Shown here: in pieces, positions 52,389 to 62,388 of the stretch | Numbering within the stretch: position 1 is the first letter of the stretch | Layout of the letters: each line of letters starts with the position of its first letter | Source of the DNA: Lachnospiraceae bacterium | GTDB lineage: Bacteria; Bacillota; Clostridia; Lachnospirales; Lachnospiraceae | Direction of reading: 5' to 3' | DNA length: 64,000 nt | NCBI GenBank assembly: GCA_024690205.1 | Contig: JAILCX010000021.1 | Location: 1 to 64,000, forward strand | Made by a program: the position numbers and the translations under genes | The notes under the pieces: generated by a model | What the model was told of the DNA's origin: nothing | Databases searched by the model: none | Seen by the model: the letters and a program-made list of their open reading frames with translations, nothing else

Positions 52389-52419
52389 AAAGCTTCTCAA
52401 TTACGAGAAGCTTTCTTGT
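52389..52419 (-). terminator. Strong hairpin terminator, best oriented for the minus strand
   Basis: A 10-base stem AAAGCTTCTC/GAGAAGCTTT with a 6-base loop. On the minus strand it is followed by a run of T's (TTTTTT counting the stem end); on the plus strand only CTTGTG follows. It is placed to stop minus-strand transcription running through from the histidine-kinase operon across the LTA-synthase gene, or it may act both ways. Confidence 0.6.
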
Positions 52420-52489
52420 GTTTTTTATAGTTGGGTATTGGCAAGTTGCTGATGAAATAATTAACACAATCCCCGGAGCCCATCTTTCT

Positions 52490-52519
52490 TTGGTTATTTG
52501 CTCTTATTTATACTATAAT
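52490..52519 (+). promoter_or_regulatory. Promoter of the LTA-synthase-like gene
   Basis: TTGGTT (52490-52495) and a perfect TATAAT (52514-52519) are 18 bases apart. Start near 52526, only about 3 bases before the ATG at 52529. Confidence 0.65.
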
Positions 52520-52528
52520 AGGGCTGAT

Positions 52529-54724
52529 ATGTATTACCTTTTAACAATATTGCTAATTCCATATTATGAGGCAATATTCAGGATATCCACGACCAGGGAC
52601 TTCGGTATAAAGGTCATGATCCTTTCTGCTTTGGTAAGTGCAGGATACGGTTGCATATTCTCTTTGCTGATGCGCCTTACAAAAAACCCGAAGATCAACA
52701 AAGGAACAACGGGGACGGTTCTTTTTGTACTTCCCATTATCTACCTTGTCGAGTTTTTCGTATACCGCTCATTTAAGGTCTTTTACGATCCCAACACGAT
52801 AATTAACGGGGCAGGAGGTGTGGCAGCCGGCTTTAAAGCAGATGCAGCAAGGCTCATCTTCTGTTTTGACGGCCTTACCAGAATATTCCTTTTCCTTTTG
52901 CCTTTCCTTATGTATGTCCTTTTCATAAAAAGAAAAGACTCAGCTCCGCGCCATAGGATAAAACAGTTTTTGGGGCTAATTGCAGGTGCCGTCATCCTGA
53001 TCGGTTCAACCAATCTTTTCATTTCAAGGGATGAGGGCCTTTTTTCAATGTGTGATTCGGAATACAACTATCAAAACGTTGTGGAATCACTGGGACTTTC
53101 AACCGGTTTAAGACTTGATGTTCAAAGAAAGATAAAGGGTAAAGAAGAAGGATTTGTTTTTGAGTTTACAGATGTATCTTTATCGGGAAGTGCGTTAAAA
53201 CCGGACAGAATCGGTCTCCCTTCATATGAAGCAACCGGATCTTATCATCCTTCTTTAAAAGAAGATATAACACCTGTCAAAAAAGCCGGGCTTTTACCGG
53301 TATCGGAACTTTTGCCCGAACCTGAACCCGTGGTAAAACCCGAGATTCCCGAATATACCACGATTGCAGAGGTAAATCCCGAAGAAGAACCGGAACCTAT
53401 AGAGCCCGTTGAACCGCCGATGGGAGAATGGGCCGAATATTACGGAGTCAACACGCTTGATATAGACTTTAACGCACTAGCCGAAAGCACATCTGGCACA
53501 ATGCACGATCTTGATATTTATGTATCGTCGATAAAACCAAGCTCCAAGAATAAATACACGAGCCTTTTTAAAGGCAAGAACCTTATCTTCTTTTCGGCAG
53601 AGGCTTTCTCGGGCGATATAATCGACCCCGAGCTTACACCCACTCTTTACCGCCTGTCCACCAAAGGAATTCAGATACCCGATTATTACCAGCCTGCGAT
53701 CGCAGGTACCACAGGCGGCGAATATGCGAATCTTTTCGGCATGATACCGAGTCTTGGCGGCAAATCAATGAAATCCATCACGGACCATAACACCTGGATC
53801 ACCATAGGAAACAGGCTGAACGATGAAGGATATTACGGCAAAGCTTATCACAATAACGACGGAAGTGTTTACGGAAGAAACAATACACATAATAAGCTCG
53901 GATATTCCGACGGCTTTATGGCAGTCGGAAGCGGAATGGAAGAATTCCTGACGAGCACAGGCTTTCCTCAAAGTGACCTTGAGATGATGGAGGGTACTTT
54001 ACCCACATACATCGATAAGCAGCCCTTTAATGTATACTACATGACCGTATCAGGCCACGGGCAGTACGGCAGAAACAAAAACCGAATGTCGGCAAAGAAC
54101 TATGAGCGTGTCGAAAACCTTGAATATTCCGAGATAGTCAAATGCTATATCGCAAATAATCTTGAACTTGAGGATGCTCTCACCTACACAGTTAACGAAC
54201 TTGAAAAAGCAGGGATCGCCGATGATACCGTTATAGTTCTCGGTGCGGATCACTTCCCTTACAGCCTTGATTATAATGCGTCACTTGGCAATATGCCTGC
54301 TCTTTCAGAACTTTACGGATATAACGTTACAAACTACATCCAAAGGGATCATAACAGGCTGATCATCTGGAGCGGGTGCCTCGAAAAGGAGGATCCCATA
54401 ATCGTGAATGATCCTGTTTTTTCCCTTGATATACTTCCTACGCTTTGTAATCTTTTCGGTGTGGATTTTGATTCAAGACTACTTCCCGGAAGGGATATCT
54501 TCTCTGACAGAGAAGCTCTCATATTTACGGGCGGATATGACTGGAAGACTTCACTTGGAACTTATATAGCAAAAAAGAACGAATTCACACCCACCGACCC
54601 CGATGCTGATATCCCCGAAGATTATGTTGAGAGGATAAAAGCCGAGGTTCGAAACAGAATGAACTACTCAAAAAGCGTTCTCTCCTGCGGGTATTTTGAT
54701 CACGTATTCGGGCCGGCAAACTGA
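52529..54724 (+). CDS. LTA synthase-like membrane sulfatase-fold enzyme
   Basis: The protein has 731 residues. Five hydrophobic segments lie within about 1-190, then a Pro/Glu-rich linker (about 265-310), then an extracellular alkaline-phosphatase/sulfatase-fold domain (about 345-725). The domain shows NLIFFSAEAFSGDI, a catalytic Thr in AGTTGGEYANLFG near 393, the MTVSGHGQYG segment, and metal ligands in LGADHFPYSLDY near 572. LtaS-type enzymes add glycerol-phosphate from phosphatidylglycerol to a glycolipid or glycan. A GTG-initiated longer frame from 52418 lies upstream of the TATAAT promoter and is rejected. The stop abuts that of the convergent kinase gene. Confidence 0.87.
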   Translation: MYYLLTILLIPYYEAIFRISTTRDFGIKVMILSALVSAGYGCIFSLLMRLTKNPKINKGTTGTVLFVLPIIYLVEFFVYRSFKVFYDPNTIINGAGGVAAGFKADAARLIFCFDGLTRIFLFLLPFLMYVLFIKRKDSAPRHRIKQFLGLIAGAVILIGSTNLFISRDEGLFSMCDSEYNYQNVVESLGLSTGLRLDVQRKIKGKEEGFVFEFTDVSLSGSALKPDRIGLPSYEATGSYHPSLKEDITPVKKAGLLPVSELLPEPEPVVKPEIPEYTTIAEVNPEEEPEPIEPVEPPMGEWAEYYGVNTLDIDFNALAESTSGTMHDLDIYVSSIKPSSKNKYTSLFKGKNLIFFSAEAFSGDIIDPELTPTLYRLSTKGIQIPDYYQPAIAGTTGGEYANLFGMIPSLGGKSMKSITDHNTWITIGNRLNDEGYYGKAYHNNDGSVYGRNNTHNKLGYSDGFMAVGSGMEEFLTSTGFPQSDLEMMEGTLPTYIDKQPFNVYYMTVSGHGQYGRNKNRMSAKNYERVENLEYSEIVKCYIANNLELEDALTYTVNELEKAGIADDTVIVLGADHFPYSLDYNASLGNMPALSELYGYNVTNYIQRDHNRLIIWSGCLEKEDPIIVNDPVFSLDILPTLCNLFGVDFDSRLLPGRDIFSDREALIFTGGYDWKTSLGTYIAKKNEFTPTDPDADIPEDYVERIKAEVRNRMNYSKSVLSCGYFDHVFGPAN

Positions 54725-57397
54725 TCACTCTTTACGTACAAAGAGCAATCCGAACGTTCCCGGTCCGCAGTTAACGGCTATAGCGGGTGAAGCTTTCTGG
54801 AAGCAGATCTCATCAAACTTCATCCTGCCCTCTATCATCGTCTTTATCTTTTCTATATCACTGTGTGAAAGCCCGACATAAGTTACAAAAAGCAGGCTGT
54901 TATCTATTTCGGACGGATTCCTAAGCGTTGAATTGATGTATCTTTTCCATGCTCTTTCCCTCGAACCGAAATATACCTTGCCGACACCTATCCTGCCTTT
55001 TTTAAGTGCAAGTACCGGACGTATCATGAACGCCCTTGTTATTCCCGCTATCCTTGAACTTACCTGACCTGCTCTTGACAAATACTCAAGACCATCCACT
55101 ATAAATCCAGTATTCACCCTTTTTTTAACACTATTAAGCGCTTTAGCAATCTCCTCGGGGCCTGCACCTTCCTGTGCCATTTTATAAGCTGTCAGCGCCA
55201 TAAGTCCCTGTCCGCTTGAAAGATGCCCCGAATCCACAACGGTAACATTATCAAATGCCTTTGCCGCCTCTTTGGCGAAATAATAACCGCTGTGTGCAAC
55301 TTTACTTGAAATAGAGATGTGAACCACATTATTTGCCCTGTTAAGCGCATAAGCAAAGAAATTCTCGTGTTCTTCGACATCCGGAGCCTTTGTTTTGACC
55401 TTTGCTTTTTCATCCTTCATGTAGGCAAGCAGACCGTTTTGTTCGATCTCTTTTCCGTCTCTAAAAAGGCCGTCCTCGGTCTCTACCATATGAGGGAGTA
55501 TCAGTATTCCGTTTTTCCGGGCAAGTGAAGCAGGCAGATCGGCGACGCTTTCCGTGGTGATCATGACCATTTCTTTCTTTTCAAGATCCCTGATCCATAA
55601 CATACTCTCTTCAAGTATCTCTTCGCCCGAACCTGTTAGAACGATCATATCACGCGGCAGGTTCTTTCTTAATTCATTCTCGAGTCTGTCTCCGGTTATG
55701 GGTTTTTCAAGATATCCGTCAAAACCTTCTTTGGCGAACATTGCCGCAATATCCGAACCGGCGCTTGCGGTAAGCGCAATGATCTTTGAATCCTTATTAA
55801 GTCCTCCGACCTGCTCACGGATACGGTGAAGACATTCCACACCGTCCATTTTGGGCATAAGGTGATCCATGAAAATGACCTGATACTTTTTCTCGAGCGT
55901 CTTTTTCAAAGCTTCTTTTCCGCCGGTTGCCGTATCGATCTTTACTTTTGTATCACGAAGGAGTTTTTCGGCAACCAGCAGATTTTCGACCGTATCATCG
56001 ACTATGAGAATCTCAGCCGAGGGAGCTTCGAATGACTGATGGTACTCATATGCGGATATGTTCCTTCTGCGCTCCTCAAGATTGGTATCGCGAAGATGAC
56101 TGTCATCAACGATATGCTGGGGTATCTCAATGATGAATGAACTTCCCTTTGTATAGATACTGTTAACAGTGATGGTTCCTCCCATCAGGTCAACCAGTTG
56201 CTTTACTATCGAAAGACCAAGTCCTGTTCCTTCAATATACTTGTTCTTTTCCTCATCAACTCTCTTAAATGCATTGAAAAGATAGGGAAGGTTCTCTTTT
56301 TTGATGCCTATACCCGTATCACTTACGGTATAGATGATAAGGGCATCCTCATTTTCCCTTCGCTTGGCCTGGATCGAGAGCGTGACCGATCCTTCATTTG
56401 TATATTTTATCGCGTTATTAAGGACGTTTATAAGGATCTGCTTGATCCTGACCTCATCACCCATGAGCACGGAAGGAAGGTCATCTGCCAGATCCACTCT
56501 GAAATCAAGTCCCTTATCTTTTGCTCTCATCCACAGCATTCCGACAATATCGGAAAGCATGTCCCCGGTATTGTATGAATTTACGGTAAGCTTCATCTGT
56601 CCGGATTCGATCTTTGACATATCAAGTATGTCATTTATAAGGTGTAAAAGCATACGGCTTGCCGACTGGATATTTACCGCATTTTCATTCACTTCCTCGG
56701 AAAGATTCTCTCTTAGATTCATTTCATTAAGGCCGATTATCGTGTTTATCGGTGTCCTTATCTCATGGCTCATATTGGAGAAAAATCTGTTCTGTGCTTC
56801 ATTGAGCTCCTCGATCTTTTTTTCTCTTTCCTCGGAGCGCAGACTCTCATCCTTATAGGCTCTTATTACGAATTCGACCATCAAGGTGATCATTCCGCCT
56901 ATGATAAGAACTGACAAAAATGAATCCGCATAGACCATGTCATAGGTATGACGTGTCACAAGTTCAGGCTTAAGATATGAAAGAGCATAGCAGCCGGCCG
57001 CAACCAGTGCATTACATACAAGGAAAAACCATTTGACGGCCCCGTTCATCATCATGCTTATTAAAAGCATGCAAAGAATGAACCAGCACGGAGATCCTCC
57101 GTATACTCCTCCGCCGGTAAAAAATGTTATCGGAAGCAGTATAAAGACTATAAGAAAAACACTTATCACTATTCCTGCCGGAACTTTTTTATATCTGAAA
57201 GAGAAAAATGCAATGATACCGAAAACCACGAAGAATCCGCCAAGAATGAGGAGATCTTCTTTGCTCTCACCGACAAAAAGACCCATGATAAACACGATGA
57301 GTAAAGTAACAAGACCTATGGCTGAAACAAGGGCATATTGTCTGTCCTGAATCCTTCGCTCTTTGTCCCTTATATATTTAAAAAACTTCGTTATCAT
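54725..57397 (-). CDS. Hybrid histidine kinase with receiver and C-terminal DegV/FakB fatty-acid-binding domain
   Basis: The protein has 890 residues. About six membrane segments lie in residues 20-185. HisKA has MSHEIRTPINTIIGLNEMN with the acceptor His near 213. HATPase_c (about 320-435) shows GTGLGLSIVKQLVDLMGG. A receiver (about 465-585) has its acceptor Asp in IFMDHLMPKMDG near 510 and the conserved Lys in EKPI. From about 608 to the end is a complete DegV domain: ITTESVADLP, HISISSKVAHSGYY, VTVVDSGHLSSGQGL, FIVDGLEYLSRAGQVSS, MIRPVLALKKGRIGV and NCGPGTFGLLFV. DegV/FakB proteins hold a fatty acid for phosphorylation by FakA. The fusion suggests lipid sensing by, or lipid-linked control of, the kinase. 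It starts behind AGGGGGA, 27 bases after the previous kinase gene. Confidence 0.9.
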   Translation of the reverse strand: MITKFFKYIRDKERRIQDRQYALVSAIGLVTLLIVFIMGLFVGESKEDLLILGGFFVVFGIIAFFSFRYKKVPAGIVISVFLIVFILLPITFFTGGGVYGGSPCWFILCMLLISMMMNGAVKWFFLVCNALVAAGCYALSYLKPELVTRHTYDMVYADSFLSVLIIGGMITLMVEFVIRAYKDESLRSEEREKKIEELNEAQNRFFSNMSHEIRTPINTIIGLNEMNLRENLSEEVNENAVNIQSASRMLLHLINDILDMSKIESGQMKLTVNSYNTGDMLSDIVGMLWMRAKDKGLDFRVDLADDLPSVLMGDEVRIKQILINVLNNAIKYTNEGSVTLSIQAKRRENEDALIIYTVSDTGIGIKKENLPYLFNAFKRVDEEKNKYIEGTGLGLSIVKQLVDLMGGTITVNSIYTKGSSFIIEIPQHIVDDSHLRDTNLEERRRNISAYEYHQSFEAPSAEILIVDDTVENLLVAEKLLRDTKVKIDTATGGKEALKKTLEKKYQVIFMDHLMPKMDGVECLHRIREQVGGLNKDSKIIALTASAGSDIAAMFAKEGFDGYLEKPITGDRLENELRKNLPRDMIVLTGSGEEILEESMLWIRDLEKKEMVMITTESVADLPASLARKNGILILPHMVETEDGLFRDGKEIEQNGLLAYMKDEKAKVKTKAPDVEEHENFFAYALNRANNVVHISISSKVAHSGYYFAKEAAKAFDNVTVVDSGHLSSGQGLMALTAYKMAQEGAGPEEIAKALNSVKKRVNTGFIVDGLEYLSRAGQVSSRIAGITRAFMIRPVLALKKGRIGVGKVYFGSRERAWKRYINSTLRNPSEIDNSLLFVTYVGLSHSDIEKIKTMIEGRMKFDEICFQKASPAIAVNCGPGTFGLLFVRKE
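54728..54745 (+). other. Hairpin directly after the LTA-synthase stop codon
   Basis: CTCTTT-acgtac-AAAGAG forms 6 pairs, 3 bases past the plus-strand stop and inside the last codons of the opposing gene. There is no T run, so it could be a 3' stabilising stem rather than a terminator. Confidence 0.35.
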
Positions 57398-57424: not shown

Positions 57425-59980
57425 TTAATCCGGCATAAACTCCATTATCTCGTTATCTTCGCCTTTATCTTTATCTGAAATATCAATGACCTTAAGTATC
57501 ATGCCCGAAAGCTTCTCGTATTCATCCATGACCTTTTGGTGATTTTCGGTTATGTACTTTACATCATTTTCCTTAGCAGCATCTTCAAGTGCCTTTGCTT
57601 TTTCAGAAAGAGAATTTGCACCTATGAGTCTTGATGTGCTTTTAAGCGCATGGACAATGACTGCGTAGTTTTTAAGGTCACCTGAGTCTTTGAACATTCC
57701 GGATTCTTCACTTTTCTGCTTAAATCCGTTTGCGAAATTAATAAGGAGTGTCTTGTACAATTCCGGATCATCCTGGCTATAGTGAAGTCCCTTTTCCTGA
57801 TCTATCAGCGATCTTTCAAAAGATCCCAGGGGGCCTGATGCTTTTCCTTCCAAAACCTCCATATTACCGACCGGTCTTTTTATGTACTTACCTGCCGTTT
57901 TGGTTTTTTCCGTCCCAGCTTCTATCGGAACCATTCTTACCATTTCTTTTGGCAGAACAGCCTTTAATACTCTTTCAAGCTCGACTCTCTCAACAGGCTT
58001 GCTTACAAATCCGTCAAACCCCTCTCTCATAAACATCTCACGGGCCGAGCTTACCGCGTTTGCAGTAAGCGCAACAACGGGAACGTCTCTGCGGCACTTA
58101 CCTGCATTTATCCTTATATTCTTCATGGTCTCTACTCCGTCCATACCGGGCATCATATGATCCATAAAGACGATATCGTATTCATTTTCGGTACAGAGTT
58201 TAAGAGCATCAGGGCCTGAAAGCGCAGTCGTAACCTCCATGCCGTAACGTCTGAATATTCCCAGGGCAACATTTAAGTTCATTGGCTCATCATCAACAAC
58301 CAGTGCCCTTACGCCTTCGCAAAGCATCTTTTCGGCGCTGTGGCGGACACTGTTGATATCCATGTTAAGAACACTGACAACAGGGAAGCAGTAAAACGGC
58401 TTGCCCATAACAAGAACATTTGAACCGTCCGGCGGAACAAACTCATCGTTTGCCACGACAATGACAAGTGTCTCTTTTGCAAGCTCTTCCATAAACGGAA
58501 TATCAGATTCGTATTCTTCTTCACCGACAAAAAGATGTGTCAGCTTCATATTGTCTCTAAGCTTCTTTAAGTTTTCAACCGTCTCAACCTTGTGCATCTG
58601 CACCTTAAGGCCTGAAACGATATCCTTAAGCATCGCATTGTAGAACTCACGTACATTCGGATTGGGGAATTTCTCGAAATGAAGGAATGCTCCGAGGCTC
58701 AGTCTTTCCCTGTTTGCAACGGACATGCACTCCGCCGGCGATATAACCTGCTGTGGAAGAGAAACCCTTACTTTGGTTCCTTCGTTGGGTTTTGATTCTA
58801 TCGTCATGAATCCTCCAAGGGACGAAACAAATCCCGACACGATCGGCATACCAAGACCCAGTCCGTTACTTGATCTTGTTCGGCTGGAGTTAGCCTGATA
58901 GAACCTTTCGGTTATACGCTCAAGCTGTATCTCATCCATTCCTATACCCGTATCGACAACTTCGATACACAGATTTATTCCGTATTTTTCGGTTCTGGGG
59001 AAAATATGGACATATACACCGCCTTCTTTGGTGTACTTAAGACCGTTGGTGATAAGATGCCAAAGGATCTTTTTGAGCTTGCTGACATCGGTACGCATAA
59101 CGGAAGGAAGTTCCGGCGAAACATCTATAACAAGTTCAAGATCAGCGGGCTTGGTGGGTTTTATCTGAGTGACAAGATCGTTAAGGACCGAAGATAGCAT
59201 ATAGTCTTCGATATTGACCGCAAGCTTTCCCATGTCGATCTCAGAATAATCAAGGATATCGCTTATCTGCTCGGAAACGCGTCTTCCTGCTTCTTCAACA
59301 AGCATAAGGTCATCTTTGAATTCATCGTCAATGTCCTTTTCAAGACACACTCCGGTTATACCCATTACCGCATTTATGGGAGTCCTTATCTCATGCGAAA
59401 CATTGGCCAGAAAATCTCCCGCACTTTGATTGACACTTTCAAGTTCTGAGACTTTCTTTTCAAATTCATCCCTCATCCTTAAGATCGCACTAAAAAGTCT
59501 GTCAGCTATGTAGTAGGCTATGATAACGATTATAAAATGCCATGCCGTACGGGCGGTCCTTGATACCCCCATGGTAAGTCCGACGGTATTATGCACCAGG
59601 ACAAGGTGAAAGATCATTCCGAAATAACCTGTGATAAGGCATAACACGCTCAATATCTTTTCCTGTGTCATGGTAAAAAGAAAAAGCATTAAAACAACAA
59701 CGGGCGTTGCATCATAGAGCTGGTCGATAAGAACGCTGTAATAAAACAGTTCAAGCAGAAGAATCGCTGTATAGATATAGATCCTAACATTTTCCTGGGG
59801 ACGGTGGGTTATGTGCATGACCAGTGTGACCGGTATCGCCACAAGAAACACCGGGATCGTCCATTTTTCCCATCCCAGAAGTATGTTAAGTACTATTATT
59901 ACCGACGAAAAGATCGCTATGGTGACGACCATGGCAAGGTGGGCTATATTGCGGATATCATCATTATACTTTTCTGCCAT
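57425..59980 (-). CDS. Hybrid histidine kinase with pseudo-receiver, receiver and HPt domains
   Basis: The protein has about 851 residues. Five to six membrane segments (about 20-165) are followed by HisKA with FLANVSHEIRTPINAVMG (acceptor His near 196) and HATPase_c with GLGLGMPIVSGFVSSLGG. A receiver-like segment (about 425-545) lacks the acidic pocket but keeps a GKPF loop. A true receiver (about 560-680) has its Asp in VFMDHMMPGMDG near 604. A C-terminal HPt domain has its acceptor His in IVHALKSTSRLIGA near 777. It can carry a complete internal phosphorelay and donate phosphate to other receivers. The ATG at 59980 is 8 bases from AAGGAG; a GTG two codons earlier overlaps the upstream stop. 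Confidence 0.9.
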   Translation of the reverse strand: MAEKYNDDIRNIAHLAMVVTIAIFSSVIIVLNILLGWEKWTIPVFLVAIPVTLVMHITHRPQENVRIYIYTAILLLELFYYSVLIDQLYDATPVVVLMLFLFTMTQEKILSVLCLITGYFGMIFHLVLVHNTVGLTMGVSRTARTAWHFIIVIIAYYIADRLFSAILRMRDEFEKKVSELESVNQSAGDFLANVSHEIRTPINAVMGITGVCLEKDIDDEFKDDLMLVEEAGRRVSEQISDILDYSEIDMGKLAVNIEDYMLSSVLNDLVTQIKPTKPADLELVIDVSPELPSVMRTDVSKLKKILWHLITNGLKYTKEGGVYVHIFPRTEKYGINLCIEVVDTGIGMDEIQLERITERFYQANSSRTRSSNGLGLGMPIVSGFVSSLGGFMTIESKPNEGTKVRVSLPQQVISPAECMSVANRERLSLGAFLHFEKFPNPNVREFYNAMLKDIVSGLKVQMHKVETVENLKKLRDNMKLTHLFVGEEEYESDIPFMEELAKETLVIVVANDEFVPPDGSNVLVMGKPFYCFPVVSVLNMDINSVRHSAEKMLCEGVRALVVDDEPMNLNVALGIFRRYGMEVTTALSGPDALKLCTENEYDIVFMDHMMPGMDGVETMKNIRINAGKCRRDVPVVALTANAVSSAREMFMREGFDGFVSKPVERVELERVLKAVLPKEMVRMVPIEAGTEKTKTAGKYIKRPVGNMEVLEGKASGPLGSFERSLIDQEKGLHYSQDDPELYKTLLINFANGFKQKSEESGMFKDSGDLKNYAVIVHALKSTSRLIGANSLSEKAKALEDAAKENDVKYITENHQKVMDEYEKLSGMILKVIDISDKDKGEDNEIMEFMPD

Positions 59981-59982
59981 GA

Positions 59983-62388
59983 TCACTGCTCCTTCATTCC
60001 GTATTCAGCATCTTCATCGATCATCGAAAGCATGATCGATGCAAACTTCGGATCAAACTGGGTTCCGAGACCCTTTTCGATCTCTTCCCTGACAGCCTTT
60101 TGAGGCAGTATATCACGGTAGCTTCTACGGCTCGACATGGCATCATAAGCATCGGCTACGGCTATAATACGGGCTTCTTCCGGGATTCCATTTCCGTTTA
60201 TGCCTTCAGGATAACCGCCGCCTCCGAAGCGCTCGTGGTGATACTTGGCTCCGACCGCAAGCTTTGGCAGTTCGCTGATATTTTCAAGGATCTTTGCTCC
60301 CATAACGGGATGCTTTTTGATCTGGGCAAATTCTTCTTCATTGAGTTTGCCGGGCTTATTTATTACGGCATCGGGAACACCGATCTTTCCTATGTCATGC
60401 AAAAGAGCGATCATGTATATCTCTTCCGCCTTTGCCTTTGAGTAGCCTGCTCTTTCGGCTATCATCCTCGAATACTCTGCAACTCGTCCGGAATGACCGT
60501 TTGTGTAAGTATCCTTTGCATCTATAGCCTCTGCAAGCGTCCTTATGACATGCAGTGATAATGCTTCATTTTCTTTGGTCTTTACTTCTACCTCCGATTC
60601 AAGATTTCTCTGAAGTCTCCTAAGTTCAAGTATATGCTGTACCCTCAGCATTAAAACCTCTGGGATAAAGGGCTTTTTGATAAAGTCCATCGCCCCTTCA
60701 CGAAGGCACTTTGCTTCGATTTCTTCATTGTCATTAGCCGTAAGATAAATGACCGGAATATCCTCTGTCATGAGGATCCTTTCCTTCTCACGAAGGAGTC
60801 GGAATGTTTCAAATCCGTCCATGTCCGGCATCAAAATATCAAGAAGGATAAGATCCGGGCGGTTCTCACTTATAAAATCTATGAGCGCATGCCCCGACTC
60901 AAGGACCGTAACCTTTATATTATGCTGTGTTAGTATATGCTCTGCTATTATTCTGTTTGAATTGTCATCATCAACGATAACGACCCACGGCATTTCGTTC
61001 TTTTCGGGCTTTATTACAATATCACCCTTTCTTTCACCGCTTTCTTCCTCATCGTGTTCGACAGCCTCTGACTGGCAAAGGATATTTGCTTCATCTCCAA
61101 GGGCAGAGTTGTTCCATTCTACGATTATTCGTTTTGTAACACCTTCTATGTACTGGGCTTTTACTTCGGGAAGCAAGAGGAAGAACTTGTTAAAGCCGAT
61201 CTGCATCATGATATCGCTCTTTCTGAGGGAGCGGTTTAACATATCACCGAAGCTCCTGATCAGCATCTTTGCATAGTCATCATCGACTTCCTTAACCGGC
61301 TCTACGGTAAAGAGCACTTTGAATGCGTCTCCGTGATAACTTTGAATATATCTGACCATGAAGCGGTAGATGCTGCTGAATGCATCATGCCCGAGCCAGA
61401 GCGCATAGTTTGACTTGCTCCTTTCCTCAAGCATCATGCTTATCTTCTGGATATCTCCGAATTCGGCGTTTTTGACACTTTCTACTTCATTGACTTCGCC
61501 GTAGATGTCGTAGTTATGCTTGCCGTTACGCTTTACGTTGTACAGAGCTTCATCTGCTTTTTTAAACTCTTCTTCAAATCTGGCTCCTTTCTCCCTGACG
61601 AACACAGCCCCTATCGAAACGCCCAGTGGAAGATTAAAATCATCCCCGAGGATCTCCTTTGCAAGAGCATCAACTCCCTCGTTAAGACGGCTGCACAATC
61701 CTGCTATCGAAGCCGGAGAATCGGAATCGGAAATATAGGCCATGAACTCGTCTCCGCCTATTCTTCCGACCATATCCTCCTGGCGCATATTCTTTTGGAG
61801 CATTTCTGAAAAAGCAACTAGAACACGGTCACCTGATTCATGACCGTATATGTCATTGACCTGTTTAAAGAAATCAAGATCTATGATCAGCAAGGCTCCC
61901 GTCCTTTGAGGGAGCTCATTTGCTATAAGCCTGTGGATCGTTACCTTGTTATAAAGGTCCGTCAGCTGGTCGACCGAAGCTTCCTCCGTAAGCTGCTGGA
62001 TCTTTTCCTCATTTCCGAGTATCTTTTCAACTCGTTTTACAAGTGCATCCGGATCAAAAGGCTTTCTGATAAAATCCGCTGCACCGGCATCAAGGCTCCT
62101 GCTTTCCGTTTCGGTGCTCTCATCAGCGGTAAGAAAGACTACCGGGATAGCTGGGATTCCCAGTTCCTCCTCCTTGGCCCTTAGCTTTTTAAAGGTCTCG
62201 TGTCCGTCCATTTCCGGCATCAGGATATCAAGAAGAATAAGATCGGGGACATTGCCCTCACCGATATACTCAATAAGCTTTCTGCCGGATTTCAAAGCGG
62301 TAACCCGCATGTTGTTTCTGCTTAAGATACTTCCTGCAACCTGCAGATTTGATGTGTCATCATCAACAACGATGATCCATTTAGCCAT
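59983..62388 (-). CDS. REC-GGDEF-(GGDEF-like)-REC-HD-GYP cyclic-di-GMP enzyme
   Basis: The protein has 801 residues and is soluble. Receiver 1 (1-125) has LLDILMPEMDG. An intact GGDEF domain (about 135-300) has RIGGDEFMAYI near 210 and an RQED inhibitory I-site just before it. A degenerate GGDEF-like domain (about 320-430) reads IGFNKFFLLLPE near 395. Receiver 2 (about 460-585) has LLDILMPDMDG. HD-GYP (about 610-790) has LLHDIGKIGVP near 664 and HHERFGGGGYPEG near 721. It should both make c-di-GMP and hydrolyse it, with each half under its own receiver. It lies 22 bases after the GH3 gene and overlaps the next kinase region by a few bases, so its receivers are likely targets of those kinases. 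It starts behind GGGGGAA. Confidence 0.92.
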   Translation of the reverse strand: MAKWIIVVDDDTSNLQVAGSILSRNNMRVTALKSGRKLIEYIGEGNVPDLILLDILMPEMDGHETFKKLRAKEEELGIPAIPVVFLTADESTETESRSLDAGAADFIRKPFDPDALVKRVEKILGNEEKIQQLTEEASVDQLTDLYNKVTIHRLIANELPQRTGALLIIDLDFFKQVNDIYGHESGDRVLVAFSEMLQKNMRQEDMVGRIGGDEFMAYISDSDSPASIAGLCSRLNEGVDALAKEILGDDFNLPLGVSIGAVFVREKGARFEEEFKKADEALYNVKRNGKHNYDIYGEVNEVESVKNAEFGDIQKISMMLEERSKSNYALWLGHDAFSSIYRFMVRYIQSYHGDAFKVLFTVEPVKEVDDDYAKMLIRSFGDMLNRSLRKSDIMMQIGFNKFFLLLPEVKAQYIEGVTKRIIVEWNNSALGDEANILCQSEAVEHDEEESGERKGDIVIKPEKNEMPWVVIVDDDNSNRIIAEHILTQHNIKVTVLESGHALIDFISENRPDLILLDILMPDMDGFETFRLLREKERILMTEDIPVIYLTANDNEEIEAKCLREGAMDFIKKPFIPEVLMLRVQHILELRRLQRNLESEVEVKTKENEALSLHVIRTLAEAIDAKDTYTNGHSGRVAEYSRMIAERAGYSKAKAEEIYMIALLHDIGKIGVPDAVINKPGKLNEEEFAQIKKHPVMGAKILENISELPKLAVGAKYHHERFGGGGYPEGINGNGIPEEARIIAVADAYDAMSSRRSYRDILPQKAVREEIEKGLGTQFDPKFASIMLSMIDEDAEYGMKEQ

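Follow-up and report, generated by a model that had tools for sequence, protein, structure and literature searches.

The closest described relatives of the domain studied here are the FakB proteins of the DegV family, in which two arginines are described as completely conserved (PMC8892158). In FakB1 these residues are named Arg173 and Arg205 (PMC9136124, PMC8892158), and they have been tied to FakA docking, membrane docking and catalysis (PMC9136124, PMC8892158). According to the accessible text of PMC9136124, Arg173 is required for the Fak reaction and Arg205 is key for the binding of FakA, and FakB1 remains stable, with normal exchange of fatty acids, when it carries the R173A mutation; the role of Arg173 in exchange is described as not assayable biochemically (PMC8892158, accessible text). 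Among signalling systems, RpfC senses a fatty acid and has the HD-GYP protein RpfG as its output (PMC5391125), and LadS of Pseudomonas uses the Hpt domain of GacS (PMC4866733). The initial annotation of the present locus knew of no characterised fusion of a DegV domain to a histidine kinase, and we likewise found no description of one in the open-access literature, which was searched by titles and the starts of abstracts (subscription papers and preprints were outside the scope). The accessible parts of PMC3146951, PMC12688256 and PMC9912610 deal with stand-alone DegV genes only, and mention no fusion to a kinase or receiver.

The window, i.e. the whole stretch of 64,000 nucleotides that was analysed, carries such a fusion gene, the features of which are as follows.

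54725..57397, minus strand: HK-REC-DegV fusion, a hybrid histidine kinase of 890 amino acids (open reading frame, Pfam, NCBIfam)
56855..57343, minus strand: N-terminal membrane region, residues ~19-181, several hydrophobic helices (Kyte-Doolittle and predicted helices)
56600..56797, minus strand: HisKA, residues 201-266, SHEIRTP present (Pfam)
56117..56461, minus strand: HATPase_c, residues 313-427 (Pfam)
55670..56011, minus strand: receiver domain (Response_reg), residues 463-576 (Pfam)
54734..55567, minus strand: DegV domain, residues 611-888 (Pfam, AlphaFold2, Foldseek)

The initial annotation had read this gene as a membrane hybrid kinase followed, at residues ~608-890, by every block of the DegV family, a reading with which Pfam, NCBIfam, AlphaFold2 and Foldseek all agree. 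The open reading frame is real and lies on the minus strand, where it contains no stop; the plus strand of 54725-57397 is stop-rich. The protein is a hybrid histidine kinase by its HisKA with the histidine, its HATPase_c and its receiver with the aspartate, and H211 of HisKA as well as D467, D468, D511 and K565 of the receiver are invariant in 56 aligned sequences. No Pfam sensor domain matched the N-terminal membrane region. The DegV part is matched by PF02645 of Pfam over positions 2-279 of the 280 of the profile (155.2 bits for a cut-off of 27, E 2.8e-45) and by TIGR00762 of NCBIfam (167.4 bits for a cut-off of 99.7), and a chance match is out of the question. The structure prediction, proposed as a check along with this domain search, points the same way. 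When modelled alone with AlphaFold2, the domain reached a mean pLDDT of 95.0 and a pTM of 0.91, and the best 45 rows of the Foldseek comparison with the PDB were all DegV/FakB chains, with query-normalised TM scores of 0.77-0.87 and, among the matches listed, identities of 13-26%; as modelled, the fused domain has the three-dimensional DegV/FakB fold. The AlphaFold2 model of the full-length fusion (pTM 0.43) was too uncertain in its domain arrangement, and only the helices were taken from it. The first DegV motif reads TTESVADLP, as had been pointed out, with Glu replacing Asp, and Glu stands there in 114 of the 120 close relatives listed (the window's protein included).

The stop codon of the fusion gene abuts that of a convergent gene (52418-54724, plus strand) with a sulfatase-type domain, which we take to be LTA-synthase-like, and the downstream neighbour varies from locus to locus. 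A flanking glycosyl hydrolase 3 gene spans the junction of the window and its continuation.

A search of long proteins scored on the DegV part gave 950 matches. Among the 120 listed, HisKA, HATPase, REC and DegV are all present in 117; the other three are P0052, in which an ATP-synthase-B match replaces HisKA, and the short P0012 and P0083. Entries that are named at all in the protein lists are called 'DegV family protein', in some cases with 'EDD domain' added. The window's genome itself encodes a second DegV kinase (contig C71, L009:5910-9329), an HK-REC-DegV-Hpt protein of 1139 amino acids with 542 matches. We also surveyed 200 family genomes, almost every one from a different genus, with a threshold of E <= 1e-38 to the window's DegV: 42 of these genomes contain a match, and 48 of the 59 DegV matches stand in open frames of at least 500 amino acids, in 34 genomes including the window's own. 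One further genome from the genus of the window, G190, gave no match to the window's DegV at E <= 1e-38. When the survey was widened with this threshold to 341 genomes of the class, the only fusion-length frames outside the family were in three genomes of a single genus. The best 80 of 582 named loci come mostly from rumen or gut Lachnospiraceae and other Clostridia, mainly as metagenome bins, and the fusion also occurs in records that do not bear this label, such as P6B14, AB4001 and YRB3002. Of these, Lachnospiraceae bacterium P6B14 (L145) has the fusion together with both other genes of the cassette described below. The window belongs to a draft assembly of 92 contigs, in which a frameshift or an assembly error might have joined a kinase to a separate degV gene, an objection that the initial annotation had raised together with the possible absence of the fusion from related genomes. 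Both objections are refuted: the frame has no stop, the four Pfam domains occur together in nearly all of the homologues listed, and the DegV stands in long frames in 34 of the 200 family genomes and in records not labelled as bins. A frameshift or chimera was rejected on the recurrence of the fusion across genomes, and the probability of such an error is next to nil.

In a phylogeny built from 46 fused DegV domains and 42 stand-alone ones, all fused domains form one clade (support 100/100, stem 0.75), the sister group of which comprises seven stand-alone DegVs (support 95/79). Within the sampled DegVs, the fusion arose once. The loci examined below are 42 of the 48 fusion-length matches (40 plus the two of the window's genome), the six left out being G163, G168:C69, G019, G122, G072:C20 and G076:C8. 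As side observations, the DegV at G045:C16:48963-49796 lies in a frame of 620 amino acids, scores like the stand-alones and is perhaps another fusion, and the loci L104:8290-10878 and L107:8451-11063 have a different build, with no adjoining partner kinase; in L104, Pfam matched HATPase followed by DegV only, and neither HisKA nor REC.

The five family residues of FakB2, which we take to be T61, S93, R170, R202 and H266, with Thr61-Ser93-His266 forming the carboxylate network, were placed in register by the one of 40 offsets that puts T, S, R, R and H at 61, 93, 170, 202 and 266 on 4x9x. Their columns, read from a profile alignment built on stand-alone DegVs, fall in the window as follows.

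55391..55393, minus strand: T669, equivalent of FakB2 T61, kept (alignment)
55295..55297, minus strand: A701, aligned with FakB2 S93, changed (alignment; the least certain column because of a small insertion nearby)
55064..55066, minus strand: Q778, equivalent of FakB2 R170 and FakB1 R173, catalytic Arg lost (alignment)
54968..54970, minus strand: F810, equivalent of FakB2 R202 and FakB1 R205, FakA-/membrane-docking Arg lost (alignment)
54770..54772, minus strand: N876, equivalent of FakB2 H266, changed (alignment)

The initial annotation had asked whether the lipid-binding Ser and Arg positions are kept. Both arginines are gone, and only the threonine of the Thr61-Ser93-His266 network is retained, Ser93 and His266 being replaced by A701 and N876. 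Gln occupies the R170 column in 118 of the 120 close relatives listed (the window's protein included). Across the 42 fusions, R202 is kept in none, H266 in one (Asn in 39), R170 in 20 and S93 in 27, with Thr or Ser at the T61 column in 35, and no fusion keeps R170, R202 and H266 together. Among 35 stand-alones, R202 and H266 are each kept in 33, and R170, S93 and the T61 column in all 35, a sample that favours canonical residues because 30 of the 35 are the best Pfam scorers. All five residues are also kept in the seven sister stand-alones (7/7), and the five stand-alone DegVs of the window's genome all read TSRRH; the changes therefore sit on the fusion's own branch. Conversely, the fusions have conserved positions of their own, namely F680 (46/46), F645 (45/46), A688 (44/46) and S870 (43/46).

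The fused domain is a DegV by fold and, judged from its residues, not a working FakB. It is very improbable that it still acts as a FakB carrier, with FakA phosphorylating its fatty acid and the kinase monitoring, or being governed by, that reaction. FakA is indeed encoded in the window's genome, but the equivalents of FakB1 Arg173 and Arg205 are Gln and Phe (for their roles, see the accessible text of PMC9136124), and R170, R202 and H266 never occur together in the 42 fusions. As the arginines for FakA docking and catalysis are replaced, the domain is not expected to serve FakA, and their loss argues against the role of a FakA-substrate carrier in cis. A working FakB in cis was rejected on Q778, F810 and the fusion-wide counts. 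The loss of arginine leaves lipid binding possible, since FakB1 R173A still exchanges fatty acid and PDB 7scl, which is among the Foldseek matches, is FakB1 R173A with palmitate. The window's subclade has changes at three of four residues (the carboxylate network and the catalytic Arg), so that the ligand of the pocket may not be a free fatty acid, or the pocket may be empty. The basic residues near F810 (SRERAWKRY) suggest that membrane contact by that surface may persist.

A FakA-type operon with its own DegV is present elsewhere in the window's genome, and a match to the FakA middle domain was found in 28 of the 29 other fusion genomes. In 14 of these 29, and at G000:C33:61196-61429 (111 amino acids), the FakA middle domain also occurs alone, in frames of 86-133 amino acids; the frame at G000:C33:61196-61429 adjoins a stand-alone DegV on the opposite strand.

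Beyond the further FakB residues found to be replaced, the initial annotation had not remarked that the fusion gene closes a compact run of three signalling genes, in the order REC-GGDEF-REC-HD-GYP, HK-REC-Hpt and HK-REC-DegV.

57425..59986, minus strand: partner kinase HisKA-HATPase-(unassigned, 418-556)-REC-Hpt, membrane, 853 amino acids, 27 bases upstream of the fusion
57557..57688, minus strand: Hpt of the partner kinase (residues 767-810), in which HALKSTSRLIGA can be read; its Pfam score of 23.4 bits narrowly misses the cut-off of 24.6
59983..62388, minus strand: REC-GGDEF-(unassigned)-REC-HD-GYP response regulator, 801 amino acids, overlapping the partner gene by 4 bases

The protein encoded at 59983..62388 has readable motifs, which we take to be those named GGDEF, HD and GYP. 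In systems of the RpfC/RpfG type, the genes of the hybrid kinase and of the HD-GYP regulator are linked, and the same linkage is seen here between 57425-59986 (kinase with Hpt) and 59983-62388 (REC HD-GYP). The stretch 58310-58750 (minus strand) of the partner, between HATPase and REC, matched no Pfam family at E 1, and it recurs in the partner kinases of other loci. Of the 42 fusion loci, 35 have a homologous partner kinase immediately upstream of the fusion and in the same orientation, most commonly with a spacing of -4. The seven loci that do not have a complete adjacent partner are L075 and L085 (contig edge), L081 (a short ORF in between), L093 (partner split in two ORFs), L114 (partner two ORFs up), and L104 and L107 (no partner). 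In the window's subclade (the best 80 of 582 named loci), the partner was found in 71 of 80, including Hpt-bearing pieces cut at a contig edge; the other nine are five of other kinds, three with the fusion cut or first, and one with no fusion ORF. The association between the DegV kinase and its partner is conserved.

As a rule, just one of the two kinases of a pair has an Hpt domain: in 35 pairs it is carried by the partner only in 27, by the fusion only in seven, by both in none and by neither in one, so that 34 pairs have exactly one Hpt and none has two (0/35). The pair with neither (L100) has a separate Hpt gene just downstream. In the subclade, all 71 pairs carry Hpt on the partner kinase and never on the fusion. 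In the Hpt-bearing fusions, DegV is placed between REC and Hpt. These assignments were made with phmmer; a motif regex found Hpt in only 18 of 38 partners and was set aside. The pattern is phylogenetically thin: the best tree has two Hpt changes in each gene and two independent pairs (median sign-test p 0.5), and the AU test for a single clade of Hpt-bearing fusions gave p 0.23 with L198, which carries Hpt, included, and 0.0008 with it left out. With p 0.23, a single move of Hpt is possible, and the pattern is therefore suggestive, not statistically strong. By crude motif patterns, 40 of the 42 fusions have the phospho-acceptor His and 38 have the REC Asp; for the 38 partners, the numbers are 35 and 29. 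Some copies may therefore be inactive.

In 17 of 35 loci, the pair is preceded by a gene for a response regulator with GGDEF or HD-GYP, the other 18 being ten unmatched genes, five with REC only, two other kinases and one contig edge. In the subclade, a GGDEF- or HD-GYP-bearing gene lies upstream in 56 of 71 pairs (34, 7, 6, 6, 2 and 1 by type), two of the 56 genes having no REC call, and contig edges account for seven of the 71. The related loci L108-L111 have genes of ~720, 170 and 450 amino acids upstream of the kinase pair, and in L110 the upstream genes encode CheA, CheW and a methyl-accepting chemotaxis protein. As the upstream gene differs among loci (GGDEF/HD-GYP, or CheA in L110), the output seems to vary. 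On contig C71 of the window's genome (G000), the second DegV kinase is preceded (L009:680-5913) by a partner kinase that carries no Hpt and by a kinase of 1055 amino acids, with an iron-only-hydrogenase-like N-terminus and 4Fe-4S motifs followed by HisKA-HATPase-REC-Hpt; from its sequence, this hydrogenase-like kinase is a candidate redox or hydrogen sensor.

The analysis establishes the fold, the fusion, its one origin among the sampled domains, the disappearance of FakA-related residues, the conserved pairing with a partner kinase and the lack of any sampled pair in which both kinases carry Hpt, whereas ligand binding and phosphotransfer are inferred. We propose, as an evenly poised judgement, that a FakB fold that has lost its two arginines serves as the cytosolic lipid-sensing module of a two-kinase phosphorelay driving a cyclic-di-GMP enzyme. 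The DegV domain is the only fold of a ligand-binding type recognised in the protein, and is therefore a likely lipid sensor. It would bind a fatty acid or another single-chain lipid drawn from the adjacent membrane, and the lipid loading would shift the kinase/phosphatase balance of the attached HisKA-HATPase-REC. Phosphate would then pass from the His of the fusion to the Asp of its own REC and from there, in trans, to the Hpt histidine of the neighbouring kinase, in the manner of LadS with GacS. From Hpt it would reach a REC of the REC-GGDEF-REC-HD-GYP protein, thereby changing cyclic-di-GMP. In the simplest reading, the single Hpt of the relay may be carried by either kinase, and passes phosphate on to the response regulator. 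Lipid activation would be left to the ordinary FakB/FakA-type genes elsewhere in the genome, and FakA would be idle on the fused domain.

Speaking against sensing, the C-terminal position after REC is usually the place of an output domain. The phosphorylation of REC might instead open or close the lipid pocket of DegV, so that the kinase would control the loading, release or storage of a lipid. This is unlikely, although a receiver followed by DegV has the layout of a response regulator and its effector, and FakB is described as acting by conformational opening at the membrane (PMC8892158, accessible text). The known onward route of the lipid is closed by the absence of the FakA-docking, membrane-docking and catalytic arginines, and the placing of DegV between REC and Hpt in the Hpt-bearing members suits a regulator of the relay more than an end effector. 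To the same low degree, the domain might be a scaffold that binds no ligand, used for instance for dimerisation or for the docking of the partner kinase and Hpt: several pocket and docking residues are lost, the pairing with the partner kinase is close, and F680, F645, A688 and S870 are conserved in the fusions specifically, but the whole fold is retained at very high predicted confidence, and Thr or Ser persists at the T61 column in most fusions. The present data do not separate the lipid sensor, the gated output and the ligand-free scaffold.

Returning to the lipid sensor that we prefer, a metabolic carrier appears to have been turned into a signalling part, and the residues that served its former partner disappeared on just one branch of the tree. 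The cassette, found in rumen and gut organisms, offers a soluble domain of 280 residues that can be purified and assayed alone. More tentatively, and as a possibility that we hold to be somewhat doubtful as a whole, the locus may be a clostridial counterpart of RpfC/RpfG, in which a carrier captured once, after losing its FakA- and membrane-docking residues, would act as a lipid gauge attached to a membrane kinase that shares one Hpt with its partner kinase, so as to set cyclic-di-GMP or, in other lineages, chemotaxis by the supply of fatty acids in the rumen or gut.

To our knowledge, SaeS carries no fused lipid-binding domain. The likeness of the present system to SaeRS of S. aureus, the activity of which is lowered by intracellular free fatty acids (PMC5539427, accessible text), lies in the proposed response to fatty acids. 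Compared with FakB/DegV (PF02645; FakB2 4x9x and FakB1 5uto of S. aureus), the window's domain differs by its fusion to a kinase and by A, Q, F and N at S93, R170, R202 and H266. Similarly to LadS-GacS and CblS-CblT (PMC4866733, accessible text), the fusion is an Hpt-less hybrid kinase that would use the Hpt of another kinase, and the domain complement of the window's pair fits, by analogy, a shared-Hpt relay of the LadS/GacS type; unlike in those systems, the genes of the two kinases are close-packed neighbours, and certain lineages have Hpt on the DegV kinase instead of the partner. Like RpfC/RpfG, the window encodes a membrane hybrid kinase bearing both REC and Hpt, together with a REC/HD-GYP regulator, and has a fatty acid as the proposed signal. 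RpfC senses DSF via a 22-residue N-terminal region (PMC5391125, accessible text), whereas the candidate sensor is here the C-terminal DegV domain of a second kinase, the regulator also has GGDEF, and the hosts are Clostridia.
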